Shown here piece after piece: positions 11,762 to 32,810 of a DNA stretch of 47,513 bases. Position 1 is the stretch's first letter. Every line of letters begins with the position of its first letter. Origin of the DNA: a virus; IMG/VR virus record IMGVR_UViG_3300020195_000041, positions 1 through 47,513 of that record, one strand, 5' to 3'. The notes beneath the pieces are model-generated. The model made no database searches and had not been told where the DNA came from. It worked only from the letters and a program-made list of their open reading frames with translations. Both the position numbers and the translations under genes were made by a program.

Positions 11762-14605
11762 ATGGCTAGCCTCTTTGACTATACCGAACCCCCATACTCA
11801 AACAGATTTAAAGGGAAGTGTCTAGCATGTAACTTGCATTGCCATAGTGACCAGTCTCTAGACGGAGGCTCTACAGTCAAAGATTTAATGCGTAGAGCTC
11901 ACGAGCTAGAGTACACGCACTTTACACTCTCCGAGCATGGCAACGTCAATAGTGCAGCCAGTGTCTTTAGGTATGCAGAAGAGCTCAAGAAGAAGGAAGG
12001 GATTAACCTAAAGGTCTTCCACTCGGTAGAAGCTTATATCAGACACCCTAATGACCTAAAGTCAAGTCACATAACCATTGGATTTAAGACTCAAGCAGCG
12101 TTTGAATATTACTGTTCTATAACGCCACTGATCTACTCTCCTCCTTACATGGAAGTCAAGGGTGGAGACATCAAGCCTGTAATGACTTTACAGATGTTTG
12201 AAGAACTGGCTTCTAAGGGAATTACGGTCGGCACTGGTTGCGTGGGCTCGTTCTTCAATATGCCTATCCTGAAGTCAGGAGACTGGCGTGAGTCTAAGAA
12301 GAGACTTGACTGGGTGGTCAGCCTTGTCGGTCACTCAAACGTTTATGACGAGTGGATCATTGATGATCTGTCTAAGACATATAAGTCGGCAATGTACCAT
12401 AAAGAAACCAAGGTCCTGCTGAGGCCCGCTTACCTAGAAACTAATGAATGTATCCCCCACTTCGTTGATCTGGGCTACGACACTCCAGACGTAGGCAAGG
12501 CAGTCAACTACATTAGAAGGAAGTATGTTACTTCGCCAGCAAAGATCAAGCCTCTGGCTTCTCTGGATGCTCACTATGCCTATAAAAAGGACAAGATCGT
12601 CCAGGATGCTAAGCTATTCGGCAATGACTGGGTAATGAGTAGCTTCCAGCACTTGCGAGGAGCTGAAGAATACGCTCTAGATGCAATGAAAAACGAAGAC
12701 TTGCCAGAAAGGTTTATAGAAGCTCTTATAGATAACACGGCTGACTATGCCGAGCAGTTCGGTAGCTACAGATTCAGGACAGCTAAGGATGGCTGGTTGC
12801 TGCCAGAGTACCCTGACTCTAACCGTGAATATCTAATGAATATTGTGACAAAGCTTGGCAAGGTAGATGCCAGCGACCCTGTTATTGCAGAGCGCTTACA
12901 GTACGAGATGGACACCTTAAACCCAAGCCCAGAATTCGATGCTCTTTCATACATCCGTATGACTACAGACATCGTGGAACTGGCTCAGGATAACGGTATC
13001 CTTGTGAATGCCAGAGGGTCCGTAGGAGGCTCGCTGCTTGCCTATGCGACAGGCATTACAGTTACGGACCCATTGAAGTACGACTTACCGTTTGAGCGTT
13101 TCATTACAAAAGGACGTATCCAAGCTGGGGTGTTACCTGACGCAGACTTAGACTTTTCCGACAAAGACAAGATCATGGCGTTACTGCGTGAGAAGTACGG
13201 TGACCGGATGGCTTCTTTAAGTACAGACTCGCTATTGAAGCCACGTTCAGCTATTAAGGATGCCGAGAGAGCAATTTTAGGAGCTGTCCGCCAAGAAACT
13301 GAAATGTTGACCAAGAGTATGCCAATCGTTCCTCAGGGGACCGATGAAACAGGCTGGCTGTTTGGCTACGAGCTTGAGGGAGAACACATCAAAGGCTTCT
13401 TTGAGCAATCTAGGGAGCTCCAGGAATATGCCAAATATAACCCAGAAATATGGGACCTAGTTGTTCGTATGTGTGGTGTTCAGAGGCAGAAGTCAGTTCA
13501 CGCGTGTGGCCTCGTCATCTTACCTAAGCCCGTTGCTTCATACTTCCCTGTATATAGAGTGGGAGGCTCTGCAGGAGAATTGGCCACGGCCTACAATCCT
13601 AAAGACATAGAGTATGTCGGAGGCGTCAAGATAGACATCTTAGGCGTAAAGAAGATGATGACTGTTGACCTGGCAACCCGCTTGATTAAGGAACGCCATG
13701 GCGTGAGCATCCCATGGGGAGAATACCCTCATGACCCAGAAGTATATGAAAAGATTTATGCGCAAGGTAACACTAGTGCGACCTTTCAGACCAACACGGC
13801 TGGGATTTCCCAACTTGGAGTAGACACTCGGCCAGCAACGATAGAGGAAATCTCTATCAACATTGCCCTCTATCGTCCATCATGCCTTGACTGGGAGATC
13901 GTGGATCCAGCTCAGAACTTTAAGGGGAATGCGGTTGAATTTTACGTCCAATATCGTAAAGGGAACGTGGAGCCTCGGTATATTCACCCTTCTTTAGAGC
14001 CTATCTTAGGCTCCACTGCTGGGACGCCAATTTACCAAGAGCAACTGCTTAGGATATTCCGTGATATTGGCGATATGTCTTACGAGCAAGCAGAAATTGC
14101 GCGTAGAGCTATTGGTAAAAAGGACCAGGCAACCTTGCTAGCCGAAGCAGAAAAGCTGACCAACGCCTGTTTACGTAAAGGCTGGACTCCAGAACAAGGT
14201 AGGGAGCTGTTTGACATGGTGCTTGCGAGCTCAAGATACGGTTTTAACCGTGCACACTCAACAAGTTACGCCATTGTGTCATACAACACCGCTTACCTTA
14301 AGCACAAGTATCCTCTAGAGTTCTGGGCTGCTGAGCTTAGCTGTGAATACGACAATGAAGACAAACTCCGTAGCTACGCAGACGACCTAGGCGACCTGCT
14401 ATTACAGCCTGACGTAATGGTTTCACATCCAACTCAGTTTGTTATCAGTGGAGAAAAGCTTCAGGCTCCTCTCTGTGTGATTAAGGGGATAGGAGAAACC
14501 TTTGCCCAGGATCTCAGAGCTTTCATAGACTTAGACCTGGAGTCTTCTGGCTTGACCAAAAAGCCAGTAAAGGAAAAACCTGTAAAAAAGGTCAAAGAGA
14601 AATGA
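11762..14605 (+). CDS. dnaE: DNA polymerase III alpha (DnaE, C family), N-terminal and catalytic part
   Basis: Replicative DNA polymerase. PHP domain at the N-terminus (CNLHCHSDQS, 23-32; LSEHGN, 57-62). The palm has NARGSVGGS (416-424), catalytic PDADLDF (459-465) and the third aspartate in GVKIDILG (621-628). The fingers follow (NRAHSTSYAIVSYNTAYLKH). The protein stops at 947 residues, soon after VIKGIGE, where DnaE proteins normally continue into a helix-hairpin-helix, OB fold and C-terminal region; it ends in a Lys-rich tail. The missing continuation is found on the other strand at 28637-29374. No intein-like sequence is seen at the break. ATG 11762, ribosome site AGCAGGA. Its last 4 bases overlap the next gene. 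Confidence 0.95.
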   Translation: MASLFDYTEPPYSNRFKGKCLACNLHCHSDQSLDGGSTVKDLMRRAHELEYTHFTLSEHGNVNSAASVFRYAEELKKKEGINLKVFHSVEAYIRHPNDLKSSHITIGFKTQAAFEYYCSITPLIYSPPYMEVKGGDIKPVMTLQMFEELASKGITVGTGCVGSFFNMPILKSGDWRESKKRLDWVVSLVGHSNVYDEWIIDDLSKTYKSAMYHKETKVLLRPAYLETNECIPHFVDLGYDTPDVGKAVNYIRRKYVTSPAKIKPLASLDAHYAYKKDKIVQDAKLFGNDWVMSSFQHLRGAEEYALDAMKNEDLPERFIEALIDNTADYAEQFGSYRFRTAKDGWLLPEYPDSNREYLMNIVTKLGKVDASDPVIAERLQYEMDTLNPSPEFDALSYIRMTTDIVELAQDNGILVNARGSVGGSLLAYATGITVTDPLKYDLPFERFITKGRIQAGVLPDADLDFSDKDKIMALLREKYGDRMASLSTDSLLKPRSAIKDAERAILGAVRQETEMLTKSMPIVPQGTDETGWLFGYELEGEHIKGFFEQSRELQEYAKYNPEIWDLVVRMCGVQRQKSVHACGLVILPKPVASYFPVYRVGGSAGELATAYNPKDIEYVGGVKIDILGVKKMMTVDLATRLIKERHGVSIPWGEYPHDPEVYEKIYAQGNTSATFQTNTAGISQLGVDTRPATIEEISINIALYRPSCLDWEIVDPAQNFKGNAVEFYVQYRKGNVEPRYIHPSLEPILGSTAGTPIYQEQLLRIFRDIGDMSYEQAEIARRAIGKKDQATLLAEAEKLTNACLRKGWTPEQGRELFDMVLASSRYGFNRAHSTSYAIVSYNTAYLKHKYPLEFWAAELSCEYDNEDKLRSYADDLGDLLLQPDVMVSHPTQFVISGEKLQAPLCVIKGIGETFAQDLRAFIDLDLESSGLTKKPVKEKPVKKVKEK

Positions 14606-16595: not shown

Positions 16596-17150
16596 ATGCA
16601 GGCGACAGAAGTGGAAATTAGAAAAATGCTTCCAGAAGAAAAAGAGGAGGTAGTGGCTCTCGCTAAGACTTTGGGGAAATTCGTCAAAGACCTCGGTGCA
16701 ATCTGGACTCGCTGGCAAATGTGGGAGAAATCCCCTCCATTTGTCGCCATTAAGGGCGGCAAGATTGTAGGATTCAACGCTGTAACTTTCCTGAAGAAAG
16801 ACTACGTCTATACGATCTACATTGGGGTGTCGCCAGAGTGTCGTGGGCTAGGTATTGCTAAGAACCTGATGTGGTCGTCTATTGAAGAAGGCAAGAAGCT
16901 AGGCTTGACTCGTTACTCTGCCCTAGCCGACATTAAGGGAGACGGCTACACCTTCTACTCTGGCTTTGGCATGAAGCCGGTAGCAAGGCGTAAAACTGAG
17001 AACATGTTTGATTGTGAGTTTACAGGAGCGGCAAGTGTGCAGGAATTCAGACAATTGCTAAAGGAAGGGAAGGGACATACTCCCCCCTCAGCATCTAGAC
17101 ATAAGTTGTATACGAATAAGTATGAAGAAGTCTTTTACACGTCGGAGTGA
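16596..17150 (+). CDS. GNAT-family N-acetyltransferase
   Basis: Transfers an acetyl group from acetyl-CoA to an amine. It has 184 residues. The acetyl-CoA pyrophosphate loop is CRGLGIAKNLM (about residues 82-92), preceded by the strand IYIGVSP and followed by the YSGFGMKPVARR segment, typical of GNAT motif B. Very strong ribosome site (AGGAGGAGG) before ATG 16596. It is the only rightward gene here and its 3' end overlaps the convergent 83-residue gene by 16 bases. Given the hypermodification genes beside it, it may acetylate an amino-modified thymidine, as acetyltransferases do in the phage M6/ViI-type pathways; this is inference. A protein or small-molecule substrate is equally possible. 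Confidence 0.85.
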   Translation: MQATEVEIRKMLPEEKEEVVALAKTLGKFVKDLGAIWTRWQMWEKSPPFVAIKGGKIVGFNAVTFLKKDYVYTIYIGVSPECRGLGIAKNLMWSSIEEGKKLGLTRYSALADIKGDGYTFYSGFGMKPVARRKTENMFDCEFTGAASVQEFRQLLKEGKGHTPPSASRHKLYTNKYEEVFYTSE

Positions 17151-17386
17151 ATGGCTTTATTAGTTTGGGGTAAAAGCGAGGGAGCCTTAATTCCTACCGG
17201 CTTTGGCAATAGGCTCTTAATCTTAGGCAGGTCTATCTTGCCGATTTTATTCTTCTTAGGCGAAATGCTGTCCCTACCGCTTTGCAGCTTGTAGATCTTG
17301 TCCTGAACCTGTTCAGGAGCATCCGACTTCCTTAAGAGATTGTTCCGGCATAACTTCAAGAGCTCATCTAACTTTTTGGCTTCCAT
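17135..17386 (-). CDS. Small basic hypothetical protein
   Basis: An 83-residue Lys/Leu/Pro-rich protein (N-terminal helix EAKKLDELLKLCRNNLLRK, then a Pro-Lys linker). No family recognised. ATG 17386 lies inside the end of the dCMP deaminase gene (23-bp overlap) and its stop overlaps the convergent acetyltransferase gene. It is third in a leftward unit with the kinase and deaminase. Confidence 0.5.
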   Translation of the reverse strand: MEAKKLDELLKLCRNNLLRKSDAPEQVQDKIYKLQSGRDSISPKKNKIGKIDLPKIKSLLPKPVGIKAPSLLPQTNKAIHSDV

Positions 17387-17876
17387 TTTCTACTATCCAG
17401 TGTGGCGCAGAGAGCATTAATCCCTCTGAGTTTTGTTTATATAGGATATTACCGACGTACTTCTTTATTATAGCTTGTTCGTCCTGGTGTCGGTTATCCG
17501 TAAGCCACTCGACGTGCTGAACCCCTGCATTCAGAAGCATTTTCATACATTCCATACAAGGCTGCACTGACGTGTAGAGAGCGATATGGTCCATACGGTC
17601 TGCTGGTCCTTGGCCAATGCTCAGTAGCCAGTCAATTTCTGCATGCACCATTAAGAATTTCTTGTCGGGGTGAAGGTCTGTGGCTACTGTTTGCAGTGCT
17701 CCACGATGGCCGAGGAGTGGTTTTATTACCTTGTTAACCCCATAGCCTATAACGGCATTGTCACGTTTGTCCCAGGCAAGACACACTACAGGCTTGATAG
17801 GGTCTTGGGACTTTTCTTCAAGAGCAGCGAAGATCTCTGACGTGTGTAGGACCGGGTAAGTTCCGTAGATTCTCAT
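17364..17876 (-). CDS. dCMP deaminase-like zinc enzyme
   Basis: Cytidine/deoxycytidylate deaminase superfamily. It has 170 residues, with zinc ligands in HAE (78-80) and PCMEC (106-110), the catalytic Glu in HAE, and following helix MKMLLNAGVQHVEW. The usual phage role is dCMP to dUMP, feeding thymidylate or hydroxymethyl-dUMP synthesis. It lies 10 bp downstream of the P-loop kinase gene under the same promoter, which fits supply of precursors for modified thymidine. It could instead act on another cytosine compound; substrate is by family and context. Confidence 0.85.
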   Translation of the reverse strand: MRIYGTYPVLHTSEIFAALEEKSQDPIKPVVCLAWDKRDNAVIGYGVNKVIKPLLGHRGALQTVATDLHPDKKFLMVHAEIDWLLSIGQGPADRMDHIALYTSVQPCMECMKMLLNAGVQHVEWLTDNRHQDEQAIIKKYVGNILYKQNSEGLMLSAPHWIVENGSQKVR

Positions 17877-17886
17877 TTGATAGTCC

Positions 17887-18480
17887 TTACATTAGATTGA
17901 GAGCGTTATTGATGATTTCAGCAATTTGCTCTGGAGTATGGTTGTCCTGAATGGTTTCGTAAAACACCGGCTTCGTGCACTTAGTCTGGAAGTGAGCCAC
18001 AGTGTGCTTCGCCCTACGGATAAAGTCGTTACTGTTGTCTAAGGTCTTCTTTGGTAGCTCGGTTTCCACAATACCATTACGAGCCCTACGCTCCGAGAGC
18101 CTCCGAAGCGTCTCTGTAGGCGAGATATCAAAGTGTACACACAAGACCTTGATTTCTTCTTCGTAGTCGTTCACCATTTCAATCAGACGGGGGCTACCCA
18201 TGACACCGTCTATTACTACGAGATCGTTAAGTTCCAGGCACTTGAAAAAGGACATCCGAATAAGTCTTGGAGCAGTGTTTCCGTCTGTTCCAGTGCCGAT
18301 GTTACCAGCCAAGGCTGCATTGTCATAGAGCGTGTAGAAAAACGGCTTCTTCACTGGTCCCTTTGGGGTTTCTAGCATGACTTGAACACGATTCTGTTGA
18401 GGTGTTCCTGAGCACAAGGCAAGCCGAGCGGTAGTTTTGCCAGTTGCTCCAGCTCCTAATAAAAATACGGCCTTTTTCAT
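17887..18480 (-). CDS. P-loop kinase, candidate 5-hydroxymethyluracil DNA kinase
   Basis: A 197-residue P-loop protein. Walker A GAGATGKT (9-16) sits at the very N-terminus, a Walker B-like strand LNDLVVIDGVMG is near 84-95, and a lid-like Arg-rich segment (RRLSERRARNG) follows, as in deoxynucleotide kinases and the phage HMU-DNA kinase family. In thymidine-hypermodifying phages a kinase of this type phosphorylates 5-hydroxymethyluracil in DNA before amino-acid attachment. The nearby transferase-like and FAD genes favour that role; a free nucleotide kinase is the alternative. ATG 18480 with TAGGAG. First gene after a good sigma70-like promoter. Confidence 0.7.
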   Translation of the reverse strand: MKKAVFLLGAGATGKTTARLALCSGTPQQNRVQVMLETPKGPVKKPFFYTLYDNAALAGNIGTGTDGNTAPRLIRMSFFKCLELNDLVVIDGVMGSPRLIEMVNDYEEEIKVLCVHFDISPTETLRRLSERRARNGIVETELPKKTLDNSNDFIRRAKHTVAHFQTKCTKPVFYETIQDNHTPEQIAEIINNALNLM

Positions 18481-18505
18481 TTGTCTGTCTCCTATGGTTT
18501 ATTCG

Positions 18506-18534
18506 GTTATATCGAAATTAAGGTTTACAGACAA
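18506..18534 (-). promoter_or_regulatory. Sigma70-like promoter for the kinase-deaminase unit
   Basis: Read leftward: TTGTCT, a 17-base spacer, TATAAC, about 26 bases before the kinase ATG. It directly follows the terminator of the upstream unit. Good consensus and placement; points to host RNA polymerase. Confidence 0.65.
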
Positions 18535-18537
18535 GCG

Positions 18538-18575
18538 CAAAAAAAGCCCACATTCTCTTAATACGAGGTGTGGGC
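18538..18575 (-). terminator. Rho-independent terminator, leftward
   Basis: GCCCACA (18546-18552) pairs with TGTGGGC (18569-18575) with a long loop, followed leftward by seven T residues. It ends the unit of the 115-residue and zinc-finger genes, and sits 8 bp past the -1-frame stop of the zinc-finger gene. Confidence 0.85.
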
Positions 18576-18582
18576 GACGGTA

Positions 18583-18669
18583 TCAGTCCATTGTGCCTAC
18601 GGTGAGGTAGTTGTTGATCAGGTAGTTACATTTATCGCACACCCGGTTCCCTGATCTTGAGAGGAACCT
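18583..18669 (-). other. -1-frame extension completing the zinc finger of the 129-codon gene
   Basis: In the frame one base back from CAK of the upstream gene, the sequence reads RFLSRSGNRVCDKC and continues to a stop at 18583, for 28 residues. Joined to SCLRCAK it gives a complete C-x2-C ... C-x2-C zinc finger of the common CLxCGKxFxSxxxxNRxCxxC phage type. The switch point is the AAA at 18669-18671 (one extra A would restore the frame). The stop lies just before the terminator, as expected for the real end of the gene. Confidence 0.65.
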
Positions 18670-19007
18670 TTAGCGCAACGAAGGCAGCTGCGCTGTTTAG
18701 CTTCTGGCCTACCGTGTTCCTTGAAGAAGGCGATTTCTTCTGCCTTGTCCATAACGATTCGCCTCTTCTGGTTAGTTCGGCGCTTGATTCTGTAAACACG
18801 ACGGTACTCGGCAACCTTTTCAGCAATTTCGTCCATAGAAAGTCCATGTTTGGTTGTATATTCACGGATAAACTCAATTGGCCTGCTTGTGTCTTCTGGA
18901 ATGCCCACTCCTACTGCTCTGCAAAAGAAGAACAGGTTTATGAGCACATCATTGTGTCGCAAAGAGCGACCGTCGTAGCATTCTACGCCTTCTTCTGCGA
19001 GCTCCAT
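18618..19007 (-). CDS. Zinc-finger protein, apparently frameshifted near its C-terminus
   Basis: As read, 129 residues. It has a helical N-terminal region, a helix-turn-helix-like middle (GLSMDEIAEKVAEYRRVY, about 54-71), a basic stretch (RIKRRTNQKRR) and a C-terminal CLRC. The annotated frame ends with an unlikely tail (GSSQDQGTGCAINVTT), while the -1 frame supplies the second CxxC. The full protein is therefore probably about 142 residues, ending at 18583. Likely nucleic-acid binding, possibly a regulator, from the basic helix and zinc finger. ATG 19007 starts immediately after the 115-residue gene's stop. Confidence 0.6.
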   Translation of the reverse strand: MELAEEGVECYDGRSLRHNDVLINLFFFCRAVGVGIPEDTSRPIEFIREYTTKHGLSMDEIAEKVAEYRRVYRIKRRTNQKRRIVMDKAEEIAFFKEHGRPEAKQRSCLRCAKGSSQDQGTGCAINVTT

Positions 19008-19009
19008 GA

Positions 19010-19357
19010 TTATTCGCCTTCTACCGCGCCACAGTCAACTACTCCTTTTTGTTGAAGCAAGTAGATGGCCATCAGCTTTTTGGTATCGGCGTATTTCTTG
19101 ACTTCAGCTAAGCCTGCCCTGAAGTCTTTGATCACTTCCTGAGCTGCAATGAATGCTGGATTGGCCTCCACTTCTGAAACGCTTTTCATTACGTGAGCGG
19201 TACGCTCCGACACAATAGTCTTCAGCTGCTCGATGTCAGCCGAACGAAGGAGAGTAAGCTCTTCATCGCTGTAGTATTTTACGAATTTAGCTTCGTAAGG
19301 GTGGAGGCTGTCTTGGGGAGTATTAGAGTTACGGCTAGATCTGCTTCTTCGTGGCAT
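19010..19357 (-). CDS. Hypothetical helical protein
   Basis: A 115-residue protein with a basic Ser/Arg/Asn-rich N-terminus (RRSRSSRNSN) and a helical body (about 30-105) ending AVEGE. No family recognised. AAGAGG precedes ATG 19357. First gene after a likely promoter, cotranscribed with the zinc-finger gene. Confidence 0.6.
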   Translation of the reverse strand: MPRRSRSSRNSNTPQDSLHPYEAKFVKYYSDEELTLLRSADIEQLKTIVSERTAHVMKSVSEVEANPAFIAAQEVIKDFRAGLAEVKKYADTKKLMAIYLLQQKGVVDCGAVEGE

Positions 19358-19383
19358 AGAAACCTCTTTGTGTTATTGGCCTG

Positions 19384-19411
19384 TTATAAAGTAACATGGG
19401 CGAAAATCAAA
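19384..19411 (-). promoter_or_regulatory. Probable sigma70-like promoter
   Basis: Read leftward: TTGATT, a 16-base spacer, TATAAC, 27 bases before ATG 19357. The -35 region reads TTGCCTTTGA, a stretch also present in the conserved 42-bp element at 11.1 and 32.9-33.0 kb. Confidence 0.5.
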
Positions 19412-19428
19412 GGCAAATAGTTTAATTC

Positions 19429-20289
19429 TTATGTATTAGCCAGGATGCCATCACGCACATAAGCCTTTTTGAGCTTATTGACTTCTTTATGGTCAAGCTC
19501 TAAGTCCCAGAGAGCTGGGTCAAATTTACAGTTGTTCATGATTGCTGAATAGTCAGGCAAATGAGATTTCAGCAAGGAGAGCTCCCAGATGTCGTGACCA
19601 ACAAAGTAAGAGCCTTTCTTAAGAATCTTAGGGACCTTACACAAGCAAGTCTCCACTTCCGATAAGTCTGCATTCCAACGGGCCGCTAACGTATTCGCTA
19701 GAGCGTTCCATTCAGGAATAATGCTCCGGGTAAAAGTGTTGTCGATGCCATATAAGTACCGGAGCCCAAAGATTGGCCCCGTAGAGCTATTAGCATCGCC
19801 TTCGTTAATGCCAATGTCAGGTAGGTCTAAGCTGCTGTGTCCGAGTGCTCTTTGAAATACCTCACACATCTTATAGCTTGCCCATTCACCAAAGTAAGGC
19901 ACGCCCTTCATAGCTGCACGGAAGTGAGCTGGAGACTTAACTGCTTCAGAAAAGTTAATGCCTAGCCATGCTCTGCGAGCCTTGAGGAAGTTATTAAAGT
20001 CTCTTACTTGAGGAGTGCGCCCACGTTCCATTCCAAACTTCAGGCCAGTGAAAGTAGCCTTGAGTTCTTCTTCAGTGCCACAGGATAAAGAAGTCTTACG
20101 TAAGAAAGCGGTCATACTCTCTAATGAGTAGAAATACACATACAAGAAGCACGCTTCTGTCGGGTGAAACTTCTCAAAAGCAATGAGCTGCTTCAGGAAA
20201 GGGTAAACAGGGTCAGCATCGCCAGTCTTAATGAGCGCTAGAGAAGCCTTTTCAAAGTCTGCGAAGTTGTGTAGTTCAGAAAGATTCAT
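19429..20289 (-). CDS. Amino-acid:DNA transferase-like protein (alpha-glutamyl/putrescinyl thymine pyrophosphorylase family), tentative
   Basis: A 286-residue protein resembling the helix-hairpin-helix glycosylase-related family that attaches amino acids to phosphorylated 5-hydroxymethyluracil in phage DNA. Features seen: a helical N-terminus; VPYFGEWASYKMCEVFQRAL (130-149) in the helix-hairpin-helix position; DLPDIG with acidic residues 155 and 158; GPIFGLRYLYG (171-181), like the GPGxxxGLxxL segment of the family; and ETCLCKVPKILKKG in the C-terminal third. Recognition is by pattern, not by search. It follows the FAD-enzyme and 83-residue genes in one leftward run, near the P-loop kinase. 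ATG 20289, ribosome site GGAG. A plain DNA glycosylase is the main alternative. Confidence 0.6.
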   Translation of the reverse strand: MNLSELHNFADFEKASLALIKTGDADPVYPFLKQLIAFEKFHPTEACFLYVYFYSLESMTAFLRKTSLSCGTEEELKATFTGLKFGMERGRTPQVRDFNNFLKARRAWLGINFSEAVKSPAHFRAAMKGVPYFGEWASYKMCEVFQRALGHSSLDLPDIGINEGDANSSTGPIFGLRYLYGIDNTFTRSIIPEWNALANTLAARWNADLSEVETCLCKVPKILKKGSYFVGHDIWELSLLKSHLPDYSAIMNNCKFDPALWDLELDHKEVNKLKKAYVRDGILANT

Positions 20290-20298
20290 TGCGTTCTC

Positions 20299-20550
20299 CT
20301 AGATAGCACGTTGTACGAAAATACGCAGCTCTTCTTCTTGATTGATGAACTTGGTATCCTTGATAAACAAGATCACTTCTGTCACCGAGGCATCAGTCAG
20401 TAGCGCTTCGTTAAAATTCCTAGGAGAGAATTCTGAAAACTTGAATCTTTTAACACTGAATAACCCGTTCTCCTCTCTATGAATACTCAGATACCAATTC
20501 TTTGAATCTCCGGTATAACTTGATCCATGAGCGTTAAGTGGTGCCTCCAC
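20299..20550 (-). CDS. Small hypothetical protein between FAD enzyme and transferase-like genes
   Basis: An 83-residue frame of unknown function, with alternating charged and hydrophobic residues suggesting an alpha/beta fold (LSIHREENGLFSVKRFKFSE). The only upstream start in frame is GTG 20550, which gives a 64-bp overlap with the FAD-enzyme gene and no strong ribosome site, so the true start may be a nearer non-ATG codon. The non-overlapping part (20299-20486) is convincing. Confidence 0.5.
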   Translation of the reverse strand: MEAPLNAHGSSYTGDSKNWYLSIHREENGLFSVKRFKFSEFSPRNFNEALLTDASVTEVILFIKDTKFINQEEELRIFVQRAI

Positions 20551-21383
20551 CCGTTCGCCATTTGGGGCCTTAAAAATAACTCTCCTCCTTCTAATATGTA
20601 GGCAGGTCCTTCTTCTTCAAAAGCTGGACGCCAGCCAGTGACGACTGAACCTGGCACCACTTCCACCTCAAGAACAGAGCCCGCAACCTTCTGAATGTGA
20701 TTTAAGATGTACTCCGCTTTACCTTCCATGTTCAGGTCTTTAGCCTTACGTTGGAAGATGAAGTGAGTGCCAAGGTAATACTCATCGGAGCCAGGAACAG
20801 GGTATAAGTACGATGAATTAAAGCGCCCTTCCTTTAAGTTAAAGCACGTTCGCTTGTCTAAGATCAACCCAGGTTCCAGGATCGTAACCTTTGCTTTAGC
20901 GTGCCAGCCCCACCGATACGTCGTAGGACGTACAGCATGGAAGCCGTGTGCGTGGATAACAAAAGCCCCCTGAGGGGCTACAGGACTATTCCGATCAGCA
21001 AACCTAGCTCGAGTCTGGGCTACGAATTCTTGAGCGTTAATGTGGTAGCTGGGCTTATTTAATAGCTTACACCCATTAAAATCGCTGACAACCTGTAACC
21101 CGCTTCTGGGGGCGTCGTGCGGTATGCTTTTTTGGGTAAAGGCATAGTTGGCTACTTCGGTAAACTTGCTAATCCATGGGTGGCTTAAGACTTCCGCTGG
21201 GAACCTTTCGTAGTTGGCTTTGTCAACGGCTTCTCCGCTTGGGTAGCAACAGCCAGTTGAAGCTTTAAAAGCTTGTACTTTCTCGTCGCTATCAAACCAG
21301 GTAAAAGGTACGCCCAGGTCTTCCAGACGCACAGCAAGTAGACAACCAATAATTCCAAAACCCTGAATATAAATCTGTGCCAT
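20487..21383 (-). CDS. FAD-dependent oxidoreductase/lyase-like protein (DAO-type fold)
   Basis: Flavoenzyme of 298 residues. The dinucleotide-binding motif GFGIIG (8-13) lies at the end of the first strand, with acidic residues D31 and D33 at the end of strand two (FTWFDSDE), as for FAD. A second-half beta sheet and a C-terminal glycine-containing segment fit D-amino-acid-oxidase-like enzymes, although the family is usually longer (350-400). Flavin-dependent lyases remodel glycine-modified thymidine in phage M6-like pathways; placement beside the transferase-like gene suggests the same here (inference). Strong AAAAGGAG before ATG 21383. Confidence 0.7.
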   Translation of the reverse strand: MAQIYIQGFGIIGCLLAVRLEDLGVPFTWFDSDEKVQAFKASTGCCYPSGEAVDKANYERFPAEVLSHPWISKFTEVANYAFTQKSIPHDAPRSGLQVVSDFNGCKLLNKPSYHINAQEFVAQTRARFADRNSPVAPQGAFVIHAHGFHAVRPTTYRWGWHAKAKVTILEPGLILDKRTCFNLKEGRFNSSYLYPVPGSDEYYLGTHFIFQRKAKDLNMEGKAEYILNHIQKVAGSVLEVEVVPGSVVTGWRPAFEEEGPAYILEGGELFLRPQMANGWRHHLTLMDQVIPEIQRIGI

Positions 21384-23054: not shown

Positions 23055-24164
23055 TTATCCCTCTATGTCAATGATGTCGAATGCTGAATCACTAGGAAGA
23101 TCTGTCTTGACTTTAACCGCTGCCACTTCGGCTAATACCTTAGCATATAACGCTTTGTCCCGAACAAGCAACTCAATAAATGCAGTTATGCTTCCGGCTT
23201 TGATGCCTCGTTCTTCTGGCCCAAAGTAAACCGTGTTTCCATTTTCCTTTTTAGTCAAAACACCTAAAGCTAGAGCTAAACGCCCGAGTTCGTTTTCCTT
23301 CTTCTCGAGCTCGCCCGTTTCCATATTCAAGTAGAACTCTGCCACCTTGCCTTCTACTGTCTGGCGCGTCTTGTTAACCTTGCAGCGAACCAGAGAACCA
23401 ACTTGCATCGCATTGCCTTGAGCGTCTAAGCGGCTTTCGTCTACCAGCTTGCTGTCTTTGCGAGACACCTTTTCCAAGAAAATGATGGTGGAGCAAAGGT
23501 GCTTAAGCCGTTGGCCTCCAGTGAGAACCCATGGCTGGTATTTAGAGGTCATGGTGTCCATATTTGCGTTGGCGTGGTTGCAAAGTATGGTGAGTATCTG
23601 GCATTCGTTGGCAAGCCTATTGAGGATGTTCAGAGCGGGGTTTACGCTCTTAGCAATACCCCCATAAGCATTCGCAGCGCTGCTCACATTGCCTTCTTCC
23701 ATTTGTCCTTGTTCGTTAATGCTCGTTAACGCTTTCACGGAATCTAGAACAATGGCGCAACAATCTTTGTTTTCAGCAATTGCTGCTTCCATCTTCGCTA
23801 AAGGAGCAATTGCTCCTTCAAACGTATTAGACCTGATGACTACTAGACGATCTACATCTACTCCTAGACTAGCAGCTCTAGTTGAACTGAAAGAGTACTC
23901 AGTGTCAATCCAGATGGCATATTTATTCGGGTATATCTTTTGCTCTTGTGCAATCATTTTAAGAGCCTGGAGACTCTTCCCAGATCCTGGTAGGCCCCAG
24001 AACATGACCATTTCCCCTACTGGGATACCGCCCCCTAAGCAGTAGTCCAGAGAAACAGAACCTGAAGAGCGTATGGCGTTGGCTTCATTTTTCATCATTT
24101 CTGATGCAACCTGAACTTTTTCAGATTTAAACAACGATGATAGATATTTGGGTAATTTTGACAT
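23055..24164 (-). CDS. RecA/UvsX-like recombinase
   Basis: Strand-exchange ATPase for recombination and replication restart. About 369 residues from the chosen start. Walker A GLPGSGKS (57-64) after a GGGIPVGEMVMFWG strand; Walker B CCAIVLDSVKAL; further on, ILCNHANANMD and WVLTGGQRLKHL match RecA/UvsX loop regions. The C-terminal part is acidic and ends IDIEG. An upstream in-frame ATG (24245) is rejected because the leader would include a perfect terminator hairpin at 24211-24235; ATG 24164 has GAGGA upstream. It heads a run with metallophosphatase and 162-residue genes. Confidence 0.88.
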   Translation of the reverse strand: MSKLPKYLSSLFKSEKVQVASEMMKNEANAIRSSGSVSLDYCLGGGIPVGEMVMFWGLPGSGKSLQALKMIAQEQKIYPNKYAIWIDTEYSFSSTRAASLGVDVDRLVVIRSNTFEGAIAPLAKMEAAIAENKDCCAIVLDSVKALTSINEQGQMEEGNVSSAANAYGGIAKSVNPALNILNRLANECQILTILCNHANANMDTMTSKYQPWVLTGGQRLKHLCSTIIFLEKVSRKDSKLVDESRLDAQGNAMQVGSLVRCKVNKTRQTVEGKVAEFYLNMETGELEKKENELGRLALALGVLTKKENGNTVYFGPEERGIKAGSITAFIELLVRDKALYAKVLAEVAAVKVKTDLPSDSAFDIIDIEG

Positions 24165-24200
24165 ATGGGCGTATTTCCTCGATAACGTGAGGTTTGCAGC

Positions 24201-24235
24201 AACAGAAAAAGGAGCAGGCGAGTTAGGCCTGCTCC
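24201..24235 (-). terminator. Rho-independent terminator, leftward
   Basis: GGAGCAGGC (24211-24219) pairs perfectly with GCCTGCTCC (24227-24235) over a 7-base loop, followed leftward by TTTTTC. It lies 7 bp past the stop of the 107-residue gene. Confidence 0.9.
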
Positions 24236-24241
24236 ACGAGA

Positions 24242-24565
24242 TCATACGTAGAATTGTGTGTCGGAGAAAGGGATGTAGCAGAAAATTCTTTCACTAGATT
24301 TCTCCTTAGACAGAGTGGCTAGGACTATTGCCTGCATGAGCTTAGCCTTCGACATAGTCACGCTGAATCCCGATGGGGTTTTAAATTGGATATGAGTGCA
24401 ATGCGCAAATGCGGAATCCATAATCCCAGAAGGACGAAATGAAGAGGTGTGACGATCCCATGATTGAATCTCGAGAAAATAGCGAAAGGTTCTATCGGCA
24501 ATGCCGTCTTCTACGATCAAGATAGGGCCGATAGTGGAGAAACGAGAAGCTTTGTGATTAGACAT
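24242..24565 (-). CDS. Hypothetical protein
   Basis: A 107-residue protein of mixed alpha/beta composition (ILIVEDGIADRTFRYFLEI; SKAKLMQAIVLATL). No domain recognised. ATG 24565 has no strong ribosome site, and two small hairpins lie just upstream, so its translation may be regulated. It ends at a strong terminator. Confidence 0.55.
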   Translation of the reverse strand: MSNHKASRFSTIGPILIVEDGIADRTFRYFLEIQSWDRHTSSFRPSGIMDSAFAHCTHIQFKTPSGFSVTMSKAKLMQAIVLATLSKEKSSERIFCYIPFSDTQFYV

Positions 24566-25104: not shown

Positions 25105-26124
25105 TTAATCCTCGTCTGCAAAGCCGAGATTGCGGCCTTTTTTGCGTTGATGAGTCTTGGTTCTGCTTGTAGTGCGCTGAGAGTTAAGCTGTTCCACCGC
25201 TTCTTCAAGGCTTATATCGTCGAGCATATGCCGAATTACACACTCGCGCAAGTAGGCTGGGGTAAATTGTTTTCCTGCAATTGCTTTACGTTCCGAAGCA
25301 GAGAGAGTGCGTTTGATGAAAGATTCAAGCAGGGTCATGCTTTCATCATCAGAAGGCGGATCTACTTGCAATACAAGGTCGAAGCGACCAGGGCGGTCAT
25401 TAAGTGTTTCGCCAAGCAGGTCCATGTAGTTGGTAGTCGCTACAATCAATGTAGGAATCTTAAATACATCGTCTTGTCCGTCAAGGAAATTGAGCAAGGT
25501 GCTGTCCACATTATGACGTCGATCAGTAAGGTCATTACCGCCTAAGTCTTCGATAATCAGTACGATGAAGTCGACTCCATCTCCAGGCTTTGCTTTACGA
25601 AACATTGTTTGCACAATTTCGTAATCTACGTCTTGGCTGTCAATGTACAGAACACACGCTTTATCTGCAGCGTCAATCTTGCTGGCGAAATAGTTGATTA
25701 GACTACTTTTCCCTACGCCCGGTATTGACCCAAGCAGCAATCCCCGTTTCTTGGTTTTTATGCCAAGTAGATCGTACACATGAAGCTTATTTTTGAAGGT
25801 ATTAAAGAACTTCACGAGCCTGCGTGTGGTTGCTGTCTCAAAATAAGCGTTATTCGCAAACTTCACTGACTGAAGTCCGAGTCTCGGCGTAACTCGCCAA
25901 GAGCCAGCCTGGATTTCATACCCACTATCTTCAGAGGGTTTTTCCTCGACGTCCATACTCACTAGCTGGATATTGCCGTCTGGACTAGAGCAAGCAAGAT
26001 GCCAGTCGCGCATGTTGACTTTAACGCCAGGAAGTAAAGTGGTCACTTCCCGTACAGTGGCCGTTTGACCGTCAAATTCTGATACAGTCGGAGCACTAAC
26101 CGATTCAACATTCTCTACACTCAT
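25105..26124 (-). CDS. AAA ATPase of the classic (FtsH/Cdc48/Bcs1-like) type
   Basis: A 339-residue ATPase. An N-terminal domain (1-95) without recognised motifs is followed by Walker A GSIPGVGKS (132-140), Walker B IVLIIED (187-193), sensor-1 ATTNY (229-233) and an arginine-finger block NDRPGRFD (242-249). That last block marks classic AAA proteins rather than clamp loaders. No protease domain or membrane segment is present; the C-terminus is basic then acidic (RKKGRNLGFADED). It lies in a row with the SSB and recombination genes, so it may remodel replication or recombination complexes. Precise role unknown. Confidence 0.82.
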   Translation of the reverse strand: MSVENVESVSAPTVSEFDGQTATVREVTTLLPGVKVNMRDWHLACSSPDGNIQLVSMDVEEKPSEDSGYEIQAGSWRVTPRLGLQSVKFANNAYFETATTRRLVKFFNTFKNKLHVYDLLGIKTKKRGLLLGSIPGVGKSSLINYFASKIDAADKACVLYIDSQDVDYEIVQTMFRKAKPGDGVDFIVLIIEDLGGNDLTDRRHNVDSTLLNFLDGQDDVFKIPTLIVATTNYMDLLGETLNDRPGRFDLVLQVDPPSDDESMTLLESFIKRTLSASERKAIAGKQFTPAYLRECVIRHMLDDISLEEAVEQLNSQRTTSRTKTHQRKKGRNLGFADED

Positions 26125-28172: not shown

Positions 28173-28604
28173 CTAGGAACGCTTCTTAGGTTTCTTGGCC
28201 GCTTTAGTCTTATTATCCTCTACCTTAGGCTTCTTCTTGGCACTTTCTTTACGTCTGAGAGAGTTTTCTGCCTTTGTCTTCACGAGGTGACAGGGCTTGC
28301 AGAGCGTCTGGAGCCCGCTAACGTCACAGTACAGTCTGGAGATATAGGTATTGTAGTCTTGGAACCCTTCTTTGACATCAACGACACTTTCGATATGGTC
28401 AACCTGCACTTCTTGCTTAGGATAGAACTTCTTACAGCCGTTACATTGGAAGTGGACCCTACGTGATTTATTCCCATTTTTACAGTTGACGTAGTACTCT
28501 CGTTTGGCGGCATTGAGGCATTCGTTGTAAGCATCCGATCGTCTAAAGTTGCGTCGTAGGCAGCCAATCACCGATGCCTGCAAGACCCATTTCTTCTTTG
28601 CCAT
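28173..28604 (-). CDS. HNH endonuclease, probably free-standing homing type
   Basis: A 143-residue nuclease. A zinc-binding CNGC, the VDHIESV histidine segment and LQTLCKPCHLVKT form a standard HNH motif, followed by a Lys-rich DNA-binding tail. The chosen start is ATG 28604, 5 bases after GGAGG; upstream in-frame codons overlap the dnaE-C stop and lack a ribosome site. The ribosome site is buried in a perfect hairpin (28605-28628), a control known for T4 homing endonucleases. It sits directly downstream of the C-terminal piece of the split dnaE, which points to a mobile element involved in the split (inference). Confidence 0.85.
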   Translation of the reverse strand: MAKKKWVLQASVIGCLRRNFRRSDAYNECLNAAKREYYVNCKNGNKSRRVHFQCNGCKKFYPKQEVQVDHIESVVDVKEGFQDYNTYISRLYCDVSGLQTLCKPCHLVKTKAENSLRRKESAKKKPKVEDNKTKAAKKPKKRS

Positions 28605-28628
28605 AAGATCCTCCATTAAGAGGATCTT
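28605..28628 (-). promoter_or_regulatory. Hairpin sequestering the HNH ribosome binding site
   Basis: AAGATCCTC (28605-28613) and GAGGATCTT (28620-28628) form a perfect 9-bp stem with a 6-base loop immediately before ATG 28604. On the mRNA the GGAGG ribosome site spans the loop and stem. Confidence 0.75.
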
Positions 28629-28636
28629 ATCTGTTC

Positions 28637-29374
28637 TTACAGGTCTAAAGCAATTAGTTCTTGCAGAGTGAATGTCTTGTAGCCTCTGTGATTGCCTGGC
28701 TTGCCAATGACTAAGCACACCTTGCGTCTGTAGTTGTACATTGCCTGAGTAAGCTTATTGTCAAACTCGTCATTGGTTCCATAGTTAGGCCACATCACTA
28801 CTTCAAACTCTTCAGAGCCGTCTGTGAACTTCAGCTTGCGAAGCTTTTTGCCTTCTCCCCAGGTCTTGGTCTCATAGCCAAGATACAGAGCAACAATGCC
28901 TGGCTTACTGACTGCACTCTTGCTCATATACGGCCTTAGGCAACGTTCATCGTAGACAGAACTATAGCTTGAGTGGATCCTGAGGTTCTCCTTCTTATAT
29001 GGGATGCTAGTTGCTCCAGTGGCCTTAAAGCCTAGAGCTGCTAGTGTGCTTGAATAGCGATCCGATATGCGGAACTGGAAGGTCGGATTAACACTAGAGA
29101 GCCAACGCATTCTGGTGAATTCTGAGTCTATTTCAGCTAGGCCGATAGCTCCCTTCTTACCTACTGCCAGGACAGCTTTAGAGCTAGCCACCTTCTTGAC
29201 TAGCTCTATCATCTTGAGCCTAGTGACGTAGTCTGGAGTAACTGTACACAGAGAGTCAAAAGCTCCCGCCATGATCAAAGTAGTGATCTGGGAGATGTTG
29301 ATGTTCAGCTGCTTTGTGGCGTATTGCGTTTTAAATAGCTTGAGCTTATCTAGAAATGCCTCAAATGTCTCCAA
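28637..29374 (-). CDS. dnaE: DNA polymerase III alpha (DnaE), C-terminal part: helix-hairpin-helix end and OB fold
   Basis: A 245-residue protein that continues DnaE where the 947-residue piece at 11762-14605 stops. It begins ETFEAFLDKLKLF and soon has ISQITTLIMAGAFDSL, the conserved LIxAGAFD block that normally follows IKGIGE by a few dozen residues. Later GIVALYLGYETKTWGEGKK and LKFTDGSEEFEVVMWP match the OB fold of DnaE. The two pieces total 1192 residues, near the usual 1160. There is no duplication between the pieces. The start is probably TTG 29374, with AGGTGA 6 bases upstream. Its 5' end lies in one copy of a duplicated sequence. Confidence 0.85.
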   Translation of the reverse strand: METFEAFLDKLKLFKTQYATKQLNINISQITTLIMAGAFDSLCTVTPDYVTRLKMIELVKKVASSKAVLAVGKKGAIGLAEIDSEFTRMRWLSSVNPTFQFRISDRYSSTLAALGFKATGATSIPYKKENLRIHSSYSSVYDERCLRPYMSKSAVSKPGIVALYLGYETKTWGEGKKLRKLKFTDGSEEFEVVMWPNYGTNDEFDNKLTQAMYNYRRKVCLVIGKPGNHRGYKTFTLQELIALDL

Positions 29375-29396
29375 GAGATATCACCTCATCATAATG
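29314..29396. repeat. Direct repeat copy A1 (remnant of the sbcC 3' end)
   Basis: 83 bp, about 80% identical to 29761-29839. Read leftward it encodes HYDEVISLGDI followed by a stop, the same C-terminus as SbcC, and then runs into dnaE-C. This suggests sbcC once ended here, overlapping the dnaE-C start. Confidence 0.8.
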
Positions 29397-29760: not shown

Positions 29761-29839
29761 TGTTGTGGCGTATTGCGTTTTAAACAGCTTGAGCTCAAGA
29801 GGTAGTAATGTCGCCAAGAGAGATTACTTCATCATAATG
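29761..29839. repeat. Direct repeat copy A2 (present sbcC 3' end)
   Basis: 79 bp matching 29314-29396. It contains the functional last codons of sbcC (HYDEVISLGDITTS, stop) and the downstream TTTAAAACGCAATACGCC sequence that in copy A1 belongs to dnaE-C. Confidence 0.8.
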
Positions 29840-31825
29840 CTCAGCAGAGAAATGATGTTCAACCATAATAACAAGCCTACGCTCCGACACTAGCTTTATG
29901 GCTTCTAAGCAGTTCTCCATTGTCTCCAGATCACATCCAGAGAAAGATTCGTCTAGCATCAGGATGGGCGAGTCGTATAGGTCACAGAGAGCCAGCTGGA
30001 ATGCCAGCACCAGACGAGAGTACTGGCCTCCAGAGAGCTGCTCCTGTGGCTTGCTGAGGAGGTGTCCGTTGAAGCTAACTTCTAGGTTTAGTTTGTCTGA
30101 CATCTCTTCTTTTGACTTCAGTTTCTTTTCTGTTTTTAGGTCTGCGTCAATAACAATCCCGTCAAACAGAGCTTCAACCCAGAACTTAGCACGGAGGTTG
30201 ATTTCTGCAATTGCGCTCTCTATCATCTCCAGAGAGACTTTTTGGGCTAAGCAGCGCAGTGTTTCTGTCTGGGCTAACATTACAGAGTTTTGATTCTTTT
30301 GCGACACGGCGTCATCGACAATCTCAAGAACAGAATCCAGCTCAGCTTGAGTCCTTTCAAGCTTAGAAGAGAATTCTTGACACTTTTCATGGCGCTGGAT
30401 GTCATTTCTGAGATTTCCTGCTTCTTGTTCTGCCGTCCGTAATGCCTCAGCAGCTGGACGAGCACGTTCGTCGATACTACGGAACTCTTTATCTAGTTCT
30501 TCCTCAGAATAGAGAGCTGCTTTTTCTTTGAAAATCTTGTGAGCTGTCTGTTCTTTATTGACGAGGACTTCGATTTCTCTGAAGCTGTCCTCATGCTCTG
30601 TTAACTTCTTGGACAGACTGTCTATGTCTGACTGCTTAGAGGATTGGTCCGTTGTATTAGTTGCCAGCATTCTTCTTTGTAGAGCAATATTACGACTTAG
30701 AGCGTCTTTATTGTCTTTATTTGTGGCAATCCGAATGCTCTCGTACGTGGAAAGCCACGTTTCGGCGTCTATCTTAAGGTTGAGAGCTGAAGATTCTTCT
30801 ACTTCGTTATACTCTGACACAAAAGAGCAGTTGTCAATGAGCTGAACCTGGACCTTACCGAGAGTTTCTCGTAAACCTGCTACAGATTCTGATCGTTTCC
30901 ATTGTTCTTGCTGCCTGTTGAGTTCTGCTTCTATCTTGACATGTTCTACTTGTAGATCTTTAAGATCTTTTTTGAGTTCTGCTAGGCGCTCTGGGGCGTC
31001 TGAATCCTTTGGAAGGAGTTTACTCTGACAATTTGCTATCCTTTCTGGCAAAGCAGCCAGAAAAGCTTGAGCATTCTGAAAGTTCTTACGCGCTGGATGA
31101 TCTTTTTGCTTGTAAAGAGCTTCTTTTTGCTTATAAAGGTGCTCCAGCTCTCTGCTTTTGAGAGCAGAGACTTTGTCAGCGAGACGCAAGCGAGTGTCCA
31201 GATTATCTGGATCCGCCACCGTGAATTCCTGTTCCTGTTTCTCTAGGAAGACTGCCAATTCAGTCAAGCTGAGCTGCTTACCCCGGTAATGGTCCAACTT
31301 ACGGTCAATGGCTACCCTCTCTTGGCTTAAGAGAGTTAATTGCGTCTTAATCTTTTCGCGATAGAAATCGGGGTTGTTGCCTCCCCTGAAGGCCAAACTG
31401 TAAATCAGATCTAGTTGCTCTCCAGGAGAGAGATTTAAGAGACTGTTCTGCTGCTTCTGTTTTACGTAAGAACTGACTTCAAATTCTACCTTGTTCATGC
31501 CGAGAGTAGCATCAATGAGCTCTTGTGCCTGGTCGTTTGTCCAGCCATTACAGGTGAGCAGGTTAGGGTTACGAGTGCGCTTAATAGCTAATCCGAGTCC
31601 TTCTAGCTCCACCTCGGTCGTCGTCTGGTCCTTGCCCCAGCTTGAGACGTTATTGAGTTTGCCGTAAAGAGCGTACAAGATGGCGTGAAACAGAGTGCTC
31701 TTGCCTGTCCCGGACCTGCCGTCTAGCTTAATGAGACCTGTTGCTGGGAGTTCTACTGAGAAGTCTTGGTGGGAACGAAAGTTATTCAAAGATAGCTTTA
31801 TAGGCGTCCTGGATTTCTGCTTCAC
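29795..31825 (-). CDS. SbcC/Rad50-like (T4 gp46-like) recombination ATPase
   Basis: Partner of the SbcD-like nuclease; together they process double-strand ends for recombination. About 676 residues. Walker A GRSGTGKST lies in the N-terminal lobe, a long coiled coil occupies the middle (about 180-560), and the C-terminal lobe has the ABC signature LSGGQYSRL, Walker B ILMLDES and a final HH loop. No zinc-hook CxxC is obvious in the coiled coil. The start is probably GTG 31825 (AAGGA 8 bases upstream) rather than TTG 31852; either way it overlaps the sbcD end. Its 3' end is the source of the duplicated repeat. Confidence 0.9.
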   Translation of the reverse strand: MKQKSRTPIKLSLNNFRSHQDFSVELPATGLIKLDGRSGTGKSTLFHAILYALYGKLNNVSSWGKDQTTTEVELEGLGLAIKRTRNPNLLTCNGWTNDQAQELIDATLGMNKVEFEVSSYVKQKQQNSLLNLSPGEQLDLIYSLAFRGGNNPDFYREKIKTQLTLLSQERVAIDRKLDHYRGKQLSLTELAVFLEKQEQEFTVADPDNLDTRLRLADKVSALKSRELEHLYKQKEALYKQKDHPARKNFQNAQAFLAALPERIANCQSKLLPKDSDAPERLAELKKDLKDLQVEHVKIEAELNRQQEQWKRSESVAGLRETLGKVQVQLIDNCSFVSEYNEVEESSALNLKIDAETWLSTYESIRIATNKDNKDALSRNIALQRRMLATNTTDQSSKQSDIDSLSKKLTEHEDSFREIEVLVNKEQTAHKIFKEKAALYSEEELDKEFRSIDERARPAAEALRTAEQEAGNLRNDIQRHEKCQEFSSKLERTQAELDSVLEIVDDAVSQKNQNSVMLAQTETLRCLAQKVSLEMIESAIAEINLRAKFWVEALFDGIVIDADLKTEKKLKSKEEMSDKLNLEVSFNGHLLSKPQEQLSGGQYSRLVLAFQLALCDLYDSPILMLDESFSGCDLETMENCLEAIKLVSERRLVIMVEHHFSAEHYDEVISLGDITTS

Positions 31826-32750
31826 TTGAATATTCCTTAAGTCTCTGTTCAAATGTTTTTAGCCTAGTGTCTTGCGTAGCTACGTGAATCTGTTGGGCGA
31901 CAGGCTTCAGCTTAATCTTAGCAAGAGCAGTGAGGTCTTTATACGCTTGAGTTCTTTTGAATGCCATAAGAGTTGCTGCTTCATCTATAAGAACAACTCT
32001 GTAGATATCTTGCCCAGAAAGGTCTAGTTTGGCAACGCCCTCTACGTTAGTTTCGAAGGTTATGAATCTTTGAATATCCACCTTAAATCGTTCGATTACC
32101 TTGTAACTGCCGTCTTCCTTGACTTCAATCATGCTGTAGTTCTTACGCATTCCGTCACCAAACTGATGCTGGCATGGAGTGCCGGGGTACCACACTTTAC
32201 CGACACGCTGGTAGCCGTGAATGTGCCCAGAGATGACCCAATAAGCTTCAGGAAGCGGGTCTCCTACGGTACTACGGTGCGAAGCTGCCATTTCACAGCC
32301 TATGAACTCCTGATGCGCAAAGACGAGCTCTGGTTGAGCTGGCATTTCAGAGATTGCCCTAGCAAAGTAGCCAGGAGGAGTGTATGGCACGAATCCAATG
32401 TTGAGGCCACCGATGACTTGCAATATTGGCTTATCTACTACCAAGAAGTTAGGATGTTCTCTATATGCAGCGAGAGCGTGAGATTCTGGTAAGTATGTTC
32501 TACTGTCGTGCATGTCATGATTACCAACTATCCCTACAACCTTGCAGCTCACCGTTGATAGGAATTTCTCAAATATGGTACACAGATCCGAGTACATATT
32601 TCTATGATGATCGAATATGTCTCCTAACAGGACTATGAAATCTGGTTTAGAGATTGCTGCTTTGATTTTGATGTCGTCGAGCAGAGCCTCTGAACGTTGG
32701 GCGTAGCGTTTATTGAGATGTATATCACCGACAACCATGATCTTAGTCAC
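31782..32750 (-). CDS. SbcD/Mre11-like (T4 gp47-like) nuclease
   Basis: Mn-dependent exonuclease/endonuclease subunit. About 322 residues. Phosphoesterase motifs in order: GDIHLN, LGDIFDHH, GNHDMHD and GHIHG. The C-terminal 100 residues are the helical partner-binding region. GTG 32750 is chosen as start because GGAGG lies 5 bases upstream and the motif block begins at once (TKIMVVGDIH); a TTG at 32762 would lie within the ribosome site. First gene of the leftward recombination unit, divergent from the baseplate operon. Confidence 0.9.
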   Translation of the reverse strand: MTKIMVVGDIHLNKRYAQRSEALLDDIKIKAAISKPDFIVLLGDIFDHHRNMYSDLCTIFEKFLSTVSCKVVGIVGNHDMHDSRTYLPESHALAAYREHPNFLVVDKPILQVIGGLNIGFVPYTPPGYFARAISEMPAQPELVFAHQEFIGCEMAASHRSTVGDPLPEAYWVISGHIHGYQRVGKVWYPGTPCQHQFGDGMRKNYSMIEVKEDGSYKVIERFKVDIQRFITFETNVEGVAKLDLSGQDIYRVVLIDEAATLMAFKRTQAYKDLTALAKIKLKPVAQQIHVATQDTRLKTFEQRLKEYSSEAEIQDAYKAIFE

Positions 32751-32810
32751 GAAAACCTCCAAGAATACTCAACGATAGCTTATAAAATCTCTGAGAGACA
32801 TGCTCCTAAA

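Follow-up and report, generated by a model that had tools for sequence, protein, structure and literature searches.

The window analysed here is the whole of the linear IMG/VR record IMGVR_UViG_3300020195_000041 (47,513 bases), to which all searches of the phage's own genome were confined. Between positions 16,596 and 21,383 it carries genes that probably make up a post-replicative thymidine hypermodification island of the type known from Pseudomonas phage PaMx11, here in a large tailed phage, with a proposed pathway to 5-aminomethyl-deoxyuridine (5-aminomethyl-dU), which a GNAT acetyltransferase may cap. All five open reading frames (ORFs) that a preliminary description of this DNA had named in the region were confirmed at the same coordinates and on the same strands, and all reading frames are intact (Table 1). 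On the minus strand, a gene for an enzyme dependent on flavin adenine dinucleotide (FAD), an 83-aa ORF and the gene for an amino acid:DNA transferase (ADDT) stand head to tail, followed by two small genes, a stem-loop, and then a kinase gene, a gene for a deoxycytidine monophosphate (dCMP) deaminase-like protein and a small ORF. The 83-aa ORF overlaps the 3' end of the FAD gene by 64 nt and stops 9 nt ahead of the transferase start, and the deaminase gene starts 10 nt past the kinase gene. The stem-loop with its seven Ts (18575-18546, minus strand) divides the transferase unit from the kinase unit. The GNAT gene has its own ribosome-binding site and is convergent with the deaminase unit. In GC content the island (46.2%) is level with the contig (46.5%), and composition therefore gives no hint of recent import.

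Table 1. Features of the island, with coordinates in the window.
Feature	Coordinates	Strand	Basis
FAD-dependent enzyme of the D-amino-acid-oxidase (DAO) fold, probable lyase for trimming the amino-acid adduct	20487..21383	-	tblastn, held-out profile, AlphaFold model
83-aa ORF between FAD enzyme and transferase	20299..20550	-	GTG start within the FAD gene; no family
Amino acid:DNA transferase (ADDT, aGPT-Pplase2), probable glycinyltransferase	19429..20289	-	Pfam, tblastn, held-out profile
Small protein between transferase and kinase	19010..19357	-	no significant family match
Small protein between transferase and kinase	18618..19007	-	no significant family match
Probable intrinsic terminator, 7-bp stem then T7	18546..18575	-	folding at -15.6 kcal/mol
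P-loop kinase, candidate 5-hydroxymethyl-deoxyuridine (5-hmdU) DNA kinase or P-loop subunit thereof	17887..18480	-	held-out profile, fold
dCMP deaminase-like protein, candidate supplier of deoxyuridine monophosphate (dUMP)	17364..17876	-	PF00383, phrog_174, PDB 2w4l
83-aa ORF downstream of deaminase	17135..17386	-	ORF only; no family
GNAT acetyltransferase resembling PaMx11 gp48; probable pathway member	16596..17150	+	profile and gp48 match

By its core match and its family residues, the transferase is a member of the ADDT / aGPT-Pplase2 family, as the preliminary description had proposed; the lack of such a match, one of the three refuting conditions of that description, does not hold. It matches the Pfam model ADDT ('Amino acid:DNA transferase') at 6.5e-5 and 23.2 bits, 3 bits below the curated cut-off of 26.2, and phrog_6364 at 2.6e-10; tblastn searches with it found proteins annotated as aGPT-Pplase2 in Rhodococcus phage Tonitrus and in Gordonia phages (best 2e-11). 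With a held-out family profile, that is, one built without the window's own proteins, it scored 89 bits (E 3e-27), whereas the next-best ORF of the window reached 3.6 bits, and the family profile matches the PDB entries 8z2m, 'Glycinyltransferase' (1e-55), and 25qc, 'Amino acid:DNA transferase domain-containing protein' (2e-64). Twenty of the 25 near-invariant residues (columns conserved in at least 90% of the relatives) are retained, and the family-invariant D24, D26, Y29, Y54, R89, K140, E213 and C217 are all present; the protein departs from residues that are constant in every other aligned member at R90G, R93P and L194W.

Relatives of the transferase are encoded by 104 stretches in IMG/VR, the best 80 of which were fetched, and the same gene types were found together at about 90 viral loci. 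The order ADDT - FAD - P-loop kinase - HMUDK_hel - thymidylate synthase (TS) recurs at four loci, and an FAD enzyme together with a GNAT stands beside an ADDT-type transferase in PaMx11 and in at least eight other viral contigs. The preliminary description had taken this pair of enzymes, seen with no visible pyridoxal phosphate (PLP) decarboxylase, as a hint that the exact structure of the modified thymidine may be new; because the pair is known from PaMx11 and these other contigs, the suggestion is left unsupported, and the pair is ruled out as a sign of a new base. Pfam, PHROG and NCBIfam scans of the scanned window proteins gave no PLP decarboxylase, no search having been aimed at that enzyme. 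Two loci show an expanded form of the actinophage type, in which a single island unites an ADDT-FAD-GNAT-kinase set with several ParB genes and two Tet/JBP genes.

In tblastn, the FAD enzyme picked out the gene of the FAD slot in Gordonia phages (8e-23), which lies two genes downstream of ADDT, and its counterpart in the Rhodococcus phage Tonitrus, and it scored 217 bits with its held-out profile. Its AlphaFold model (predicted local distance difference test, pLDDT, 87) adopts the DAO fold, with Z scores of about 20 to D-amino-acid oxidase, the glycine oxidase ThiO, MnmC and iminodiacetate oxidase. These relatives came from the fold search alone, a sequence search of the family against PDB having returned no significant one; the list of fold matches held no structure of the PaMx11 FAD enzyme, which says nothing either way. 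The family has 28 invariant columns, including the motifs GxGxxG (G8, G10 and G13 invariant), K-PH, WGW and GWRP, and the window enzyme departs from residues constant in every other aligned member at H5Y, W39F, Y182N, A193L and W226I. The slot just after ADDT is filled by a window-type FAD enzyme at 23 of 89 loci and by a DAO enzyme of the PaMx11 gp47 type at 53, never by both, and profile comparison shows the two families to be distant relatives (hhalign probability 84%). The shared slot and the lack of co-occurrence therefore suggest that the roles of the two are interchangeable, with the window enzyme belonging to a second family that replaces gp47 in the same place. In tRNA, MnmC uses its flavin to cleave carboxymethylaminomethyl-U, leaving aminomethyl-U (PMC9626948); by analogy, this bond change is that which would turn N-alpha-glycinyl-thymidine into 5-aminomethyl-dU. 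When genome contigs were scanned with the FAD family, one locus came up, in Brevibacterium: a Tet-type island, probably a prophage, with the order ParB - Tet/JBP - ADDT - FAD - kinase (L092, 4501-9439).

The kinase has a Walker A motif and no significant Pfam family. A held-out profile covering island P-loop kinases of both the PaMx11 gp49 type and Ploopntkinase3 gave it 38.5 bits (E 8e-12), while the next-best ORF of the window reached 6.8 bits; its alignment to the island kinases is full-length, it retains the P-loop and a downstream GxxxxGxD motif, and it is nearer the gp49 type than Ploopntkinase3. Its model has a nucleoside monophosphate (NMP) kinase fold (Z 13). PaMx11 gp49, annotated as 'terminase small subunit', scored 186 bits with the same profile and is therefore a P-loop kinase of the island-kinase family. 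The window kinase is the weakest of the assignments, and judged from its sequence it could be an ordinary nucleotide kinase. It had been put forward as a candidate 5-hydroxymethyluracil DNA kinase; this part of the earlier account is left unsupported, the relationship to the island kinases being a distant one and the usual helical partner, HMUDK_hel, being absent from the contig. The neighbouring gene encodes, by family matches, a member of the dCMP-deaminase family (PF00383, 2e-8; phrog_174 dCMP deaminase, 8e-8; PDB dCMP deaminase 2w4l, 2e-6), and PaMx11 gp56, used as a query, picks it among the window ORFs at 6e-5.

Held-out profiles of island proteins matched the transferase, the FAD enzyme, the GNAT and the kinase at 89, 217, 56 and 39 bits, in each case far beyond any other ORF of the window. 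This bears out the core claim of the preliminary description, that the locus is a thymidine hypermodification island of the amino-acid-transferase type yielding an aminomethyl- or N-acetyl-type thymidine. What the analysis shows is the homology of these four enzymes to island enzymes, conserved family residues, the predicted folds of the FAD enzyme and the kinase, and the co-location of the genes. In studies attributed to Lee et al. in 2018 and 2021 and to Wen et al. in 2024, 5-hmdU in DNA is reportedly phosphorylated and then receives, from ADDT, an amino acid linked by its amine; trimming of the adduct is the task of a flavoenzyme, and an acetyltransferase can cap the product. Each of these four steps has a homologue or fold-equivalent in the window, while the making of 5-hmdU has none.

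From this we infer the following route. 5-hmdU would be present in the phage DNA from a source unseen on the contig, with the deaminase increasing the supply of dUMP. The P-loop kinase would phosphorylate the hydroxymethyl group, and the ADDT transferase would put an amino acid, joined through its alpha-amine, in place of the phosphate; with glycine, the likeliest choice, the product would be N-alpha-glycinyl-thymidine. Next, the flavoenzyme of DAO fold would oxidise the N-C bond, as MnmC does on tRNA, so that glyoxylate is released and 5-aminomethyl-dU is left, the amine of which the GNAT probably acetylates. The modified base would shield the DNA from restriction. The proposed sequence of events agrees with the order described for 5-hmdU in DNA, where the kinase acts first and amine transfer comes next (PMC6449724), and PaMx11-type chemistry, with N-alpha-glycinyl-thymidine (N-alpha-GlyT) and 5-aminomethyl-dU (5-NmdU), has been published (Wen et al. 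2024, as cited in PMC11946847).

Several observations weigh against this assignment. PaMx11 gp47 is missed by the window-type FAD profile (E 0.02). The transferase and the FAD enzyme sit on the longest branches of their respective trees (3.7 and 2.7 changes per site) and their placement is unsure; on such long branches the substrate could have changed. The GNAT gene lies on the other strand, 2.3 kb from the transferase gene; the kinase is only a remote relative of the island kinases, and a terminator stands between the kinase and deaminase genes and those for the transferase and FAD enzyme. Finally, the 47.5-kb contig gave no match to a TS-like hydroxymethylase, a Tet/JBP oxygenase, HMUDK_hel or a dUTPase, whereas 84 of the 89 other ADDT loci carry a Tet/JBP or TS gene within the fetched flank; the source of 5-hmdU proposed in the preliminary description, with the hydroxymethyltransferase and dUTPase for which it had suggested a search, is not seen on this contig of an incomplete genome.

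The place of the GNAT is the first matter to be weighed. The gene could lie outside a true thymidine hypermodification island, as a stand-alone phage or host-takeover acetyltransferase, the product then being 5-aminomethyl-dU or another unacetylated base; we regard this as a possible though tentative alternative. Its position, convergent on the deaminase unit and with its own ribosome-binding site, fits such a role, the GNAT fold is very common, and only 9 of the 89 ADDT loci have a GNAT. The protein matches Pfam Acetyltransf_1 at 3e-11. It scored 49.5 to 56 bits with held-out profiles, the 56 bits of the island-GNAT profile standing against 44 for the general Pfam model. Furthermore, among 50,697 phage records, PaMx11 was the only phage matched at E 0.1 or better, and this at gp48, the gene directly following gp47 (E 0.03, two records of one phage); conversely, gp48 as a query picks the window GNAT among the window ORFs at 3e-8. 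GNATs of the gp48-like kind directly follow ADDT at six other loci. Since the loci were selected through their ADDT gene, this co-location sample is biased, whereas the search of the phage records is unbiased. Because the gene is on the opposite strand and convergent on the deaminase unit, the membership of the GNAT in the pathway is likely rather than proven.

The divergence of the transferase and the FAD enzyme raises a second alternative, in which a shifted substrate (another amino acid, or a different flavin chemistry such as oxidative deamination) yields a base other than that of PaMx11. The long branches, the substitutions at otherwise constant residues in both enzymes listed above and the position of the FAD enzyme outside the gp47 family agree with such a shift; the 28 invariant FAD columns and the eight family-invariant transferase residues are nevertheless kept, and the window-type FAD enzyme occupies the gp47 slot, so that we consider it unlikely. 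A more far-reaching version, in which the deeply diverged pair builds an undescribed thymine derivative or starts from a hydroxymethyl source of unknown kind, strikes us as distinctly less probable still.

How the missing genes are read bears on the remaining alternatives. Profile searches of the contig with all filters off, aimed at a diverged Tet/JBP, TS or HMUDK_hel protein, gave chance-level scores only, the Pfam models detected none of the three, and HMUDK_hel (PF18723) had no match in the contig at E 10; Tet-type islands also lack HMUDK_hel. No terminase, portal or capsid match was found among the scanned window proteins, so the phage genome is probably larger than the record and absence on the contig says little: the contig is probably a fragment, and the missing genes may lie elsewhere in the genome. 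The kinase and deaminase could be ordinary enzymes of the nucleotide pool (an NMP kinase and a dCMP deaminase) with no link to base modification, and ADDT and FAD could belong to an incomplete or decaying system that lacks a hydroxymethyl donor. The lack of TS, TET, HMUDK_hel and dUTPase genes is in keeping with this, as are the adenylate-kinase-like fold of the kinase, its want of a significant Pfam match and its position behind a terminator. Against it, the kinase fits the island-kinase profile over its whole length with the family motifs retained, the reading frames are intact, most near-invariant transferase residues are kept, and genes missing from a probable fragment prove little; we judge it very unlikely. 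A different target base, such as 5-hydroxymethylcytosine produced by a hydroxymethylase from another part of the genome, would suit the deep family branch and the unseen 5-hmdU source, and an amino acid on modified cytosine is known from another phage system (PMC12783734), but nearly all recovered relatives adjoin TS-type or Tet/JBP genes and the presence of a dCMP deaminase speaks for uracil nucleotides over cytosine ones, which makes this reading extremely improbable. The PaMx11-type thymidine pathway remains our preferred reading.

The phage itself has few ties to known ones. No close relatives of the window were found among the viral contigs by transferase, GNAT or polymerase, and a direct megablast of its 14-24 kb region to phages gave no match. 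The lineage is thus one without near relatives in the IMG/VR scans or phage records searched; the type of system and the FAD/GNAT pairing are already known, and what is new is a strongly diverged instance. Elsewhere in the window, 11762-14605 (+) encodes a DnaE-like DNA polymerase III alpha subunit whose strong match covers positions 8-841 of the 1146 in the model. On the opposite strand, at a distance of 14 kb, a gene for 245 aa (28637-29374, -) weakly matches model positions 866-1024 (E 0.024), the missing part, and the polymerase may be split over the two genes. Two 33-nt blocks each occur twice, at a spacing of about 445 nt and in unchanged order (29314-29396 and 29763-29839). They adjoin the start of this possible C-terminal gene, with an HNH endonuclease gene (28173-28718, -) lying about 0.6 kb off, and are a possible trace of a duplication or a mobile element. 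The contig further encodes a GroEL-like chaperonin of 537 aa (6415-8028, -; phrog_5725 2e-57, far below the NCBIfam GroEL cut-offs), a UvsX/RecA-like recombinase (23055-24245), an AAA ATPase (25105-26124), SbcC- and SbcD-like proteins (29795-32762, -) and, after a baseplate-wedge-like gene (33063-34616), a 2206-aa ORF (34628-41248, +) for a probable tail protein.

The window thus places a PaMx11-type pathway in a phage lineage that encodes DnaE, SbcCD and GroEL, and the second FAD family in the gp47 slot gives biochemists two cleanly alternative enzymes to work with. Amino-acid specificity may be easier to map with the window transferase and flavoenzyme, which are more diverged than any others in the sampled sets. 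Nothing previously known is overturned.

Among known systems, the M6 / ViI type (5-NedU, 5-NeOmdU) shares the logic of a 5-hmdU kinase followed by amine transfer (PMC6449724). It differs in that the window has an FAD enzyme and a GNAT, and no match to a radical S-adenosylmethionine (radical-SAM) isomerase was found on the contig with the RSAM profile. The FAD domain of MnmC (tRNA cmnm5U to nm5U) and iminodiacetate oxidase share the DAO fold of the predicted window model (Z 19.5-19.7 over about 280 residues), and MnmC cleaves an N-carboxymethyl group, the chemistry proposed for the window enzyme; these two act on tRNA or a small molecule, at 12-13% identity and with no significant relation at the sequence level. 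The actinophage ParB - Tet/JBP - ADDT - Ploopntkinase3 - FAD islands of Rhodococcus phage Tonitrus and Gordonia phage LittleMunchkin have ADDT and the same FAD family (about 30% identity) close together, whereas the window lacks a Tet/JBP or ParB gene, has a kinase closer to the gp49 type and has a deaminase. The N-alpha-GlyT / 5-NmdU cluster of PaMx11 (gp46-gp51, gp56; NC_028770) differs from the window, to which it bears only distant similarity, in its gp50-type (aGPT-Pplase1/HMUDK helical) and gp51 (TS-like) genes, both absent from the contig, in the DAO family of its FAD enzyme, and in the arrangement of the window genes in three units on two strands. It is alike in its transferase gp46 (8z2m family), FAD enzyme gp47, GNAT gp48, kinase gp49 and dCMP deaminase gp56, a likeness seen by sequence for gp46, gp48, gp49 and gp56 and by slot and fold for gp47.

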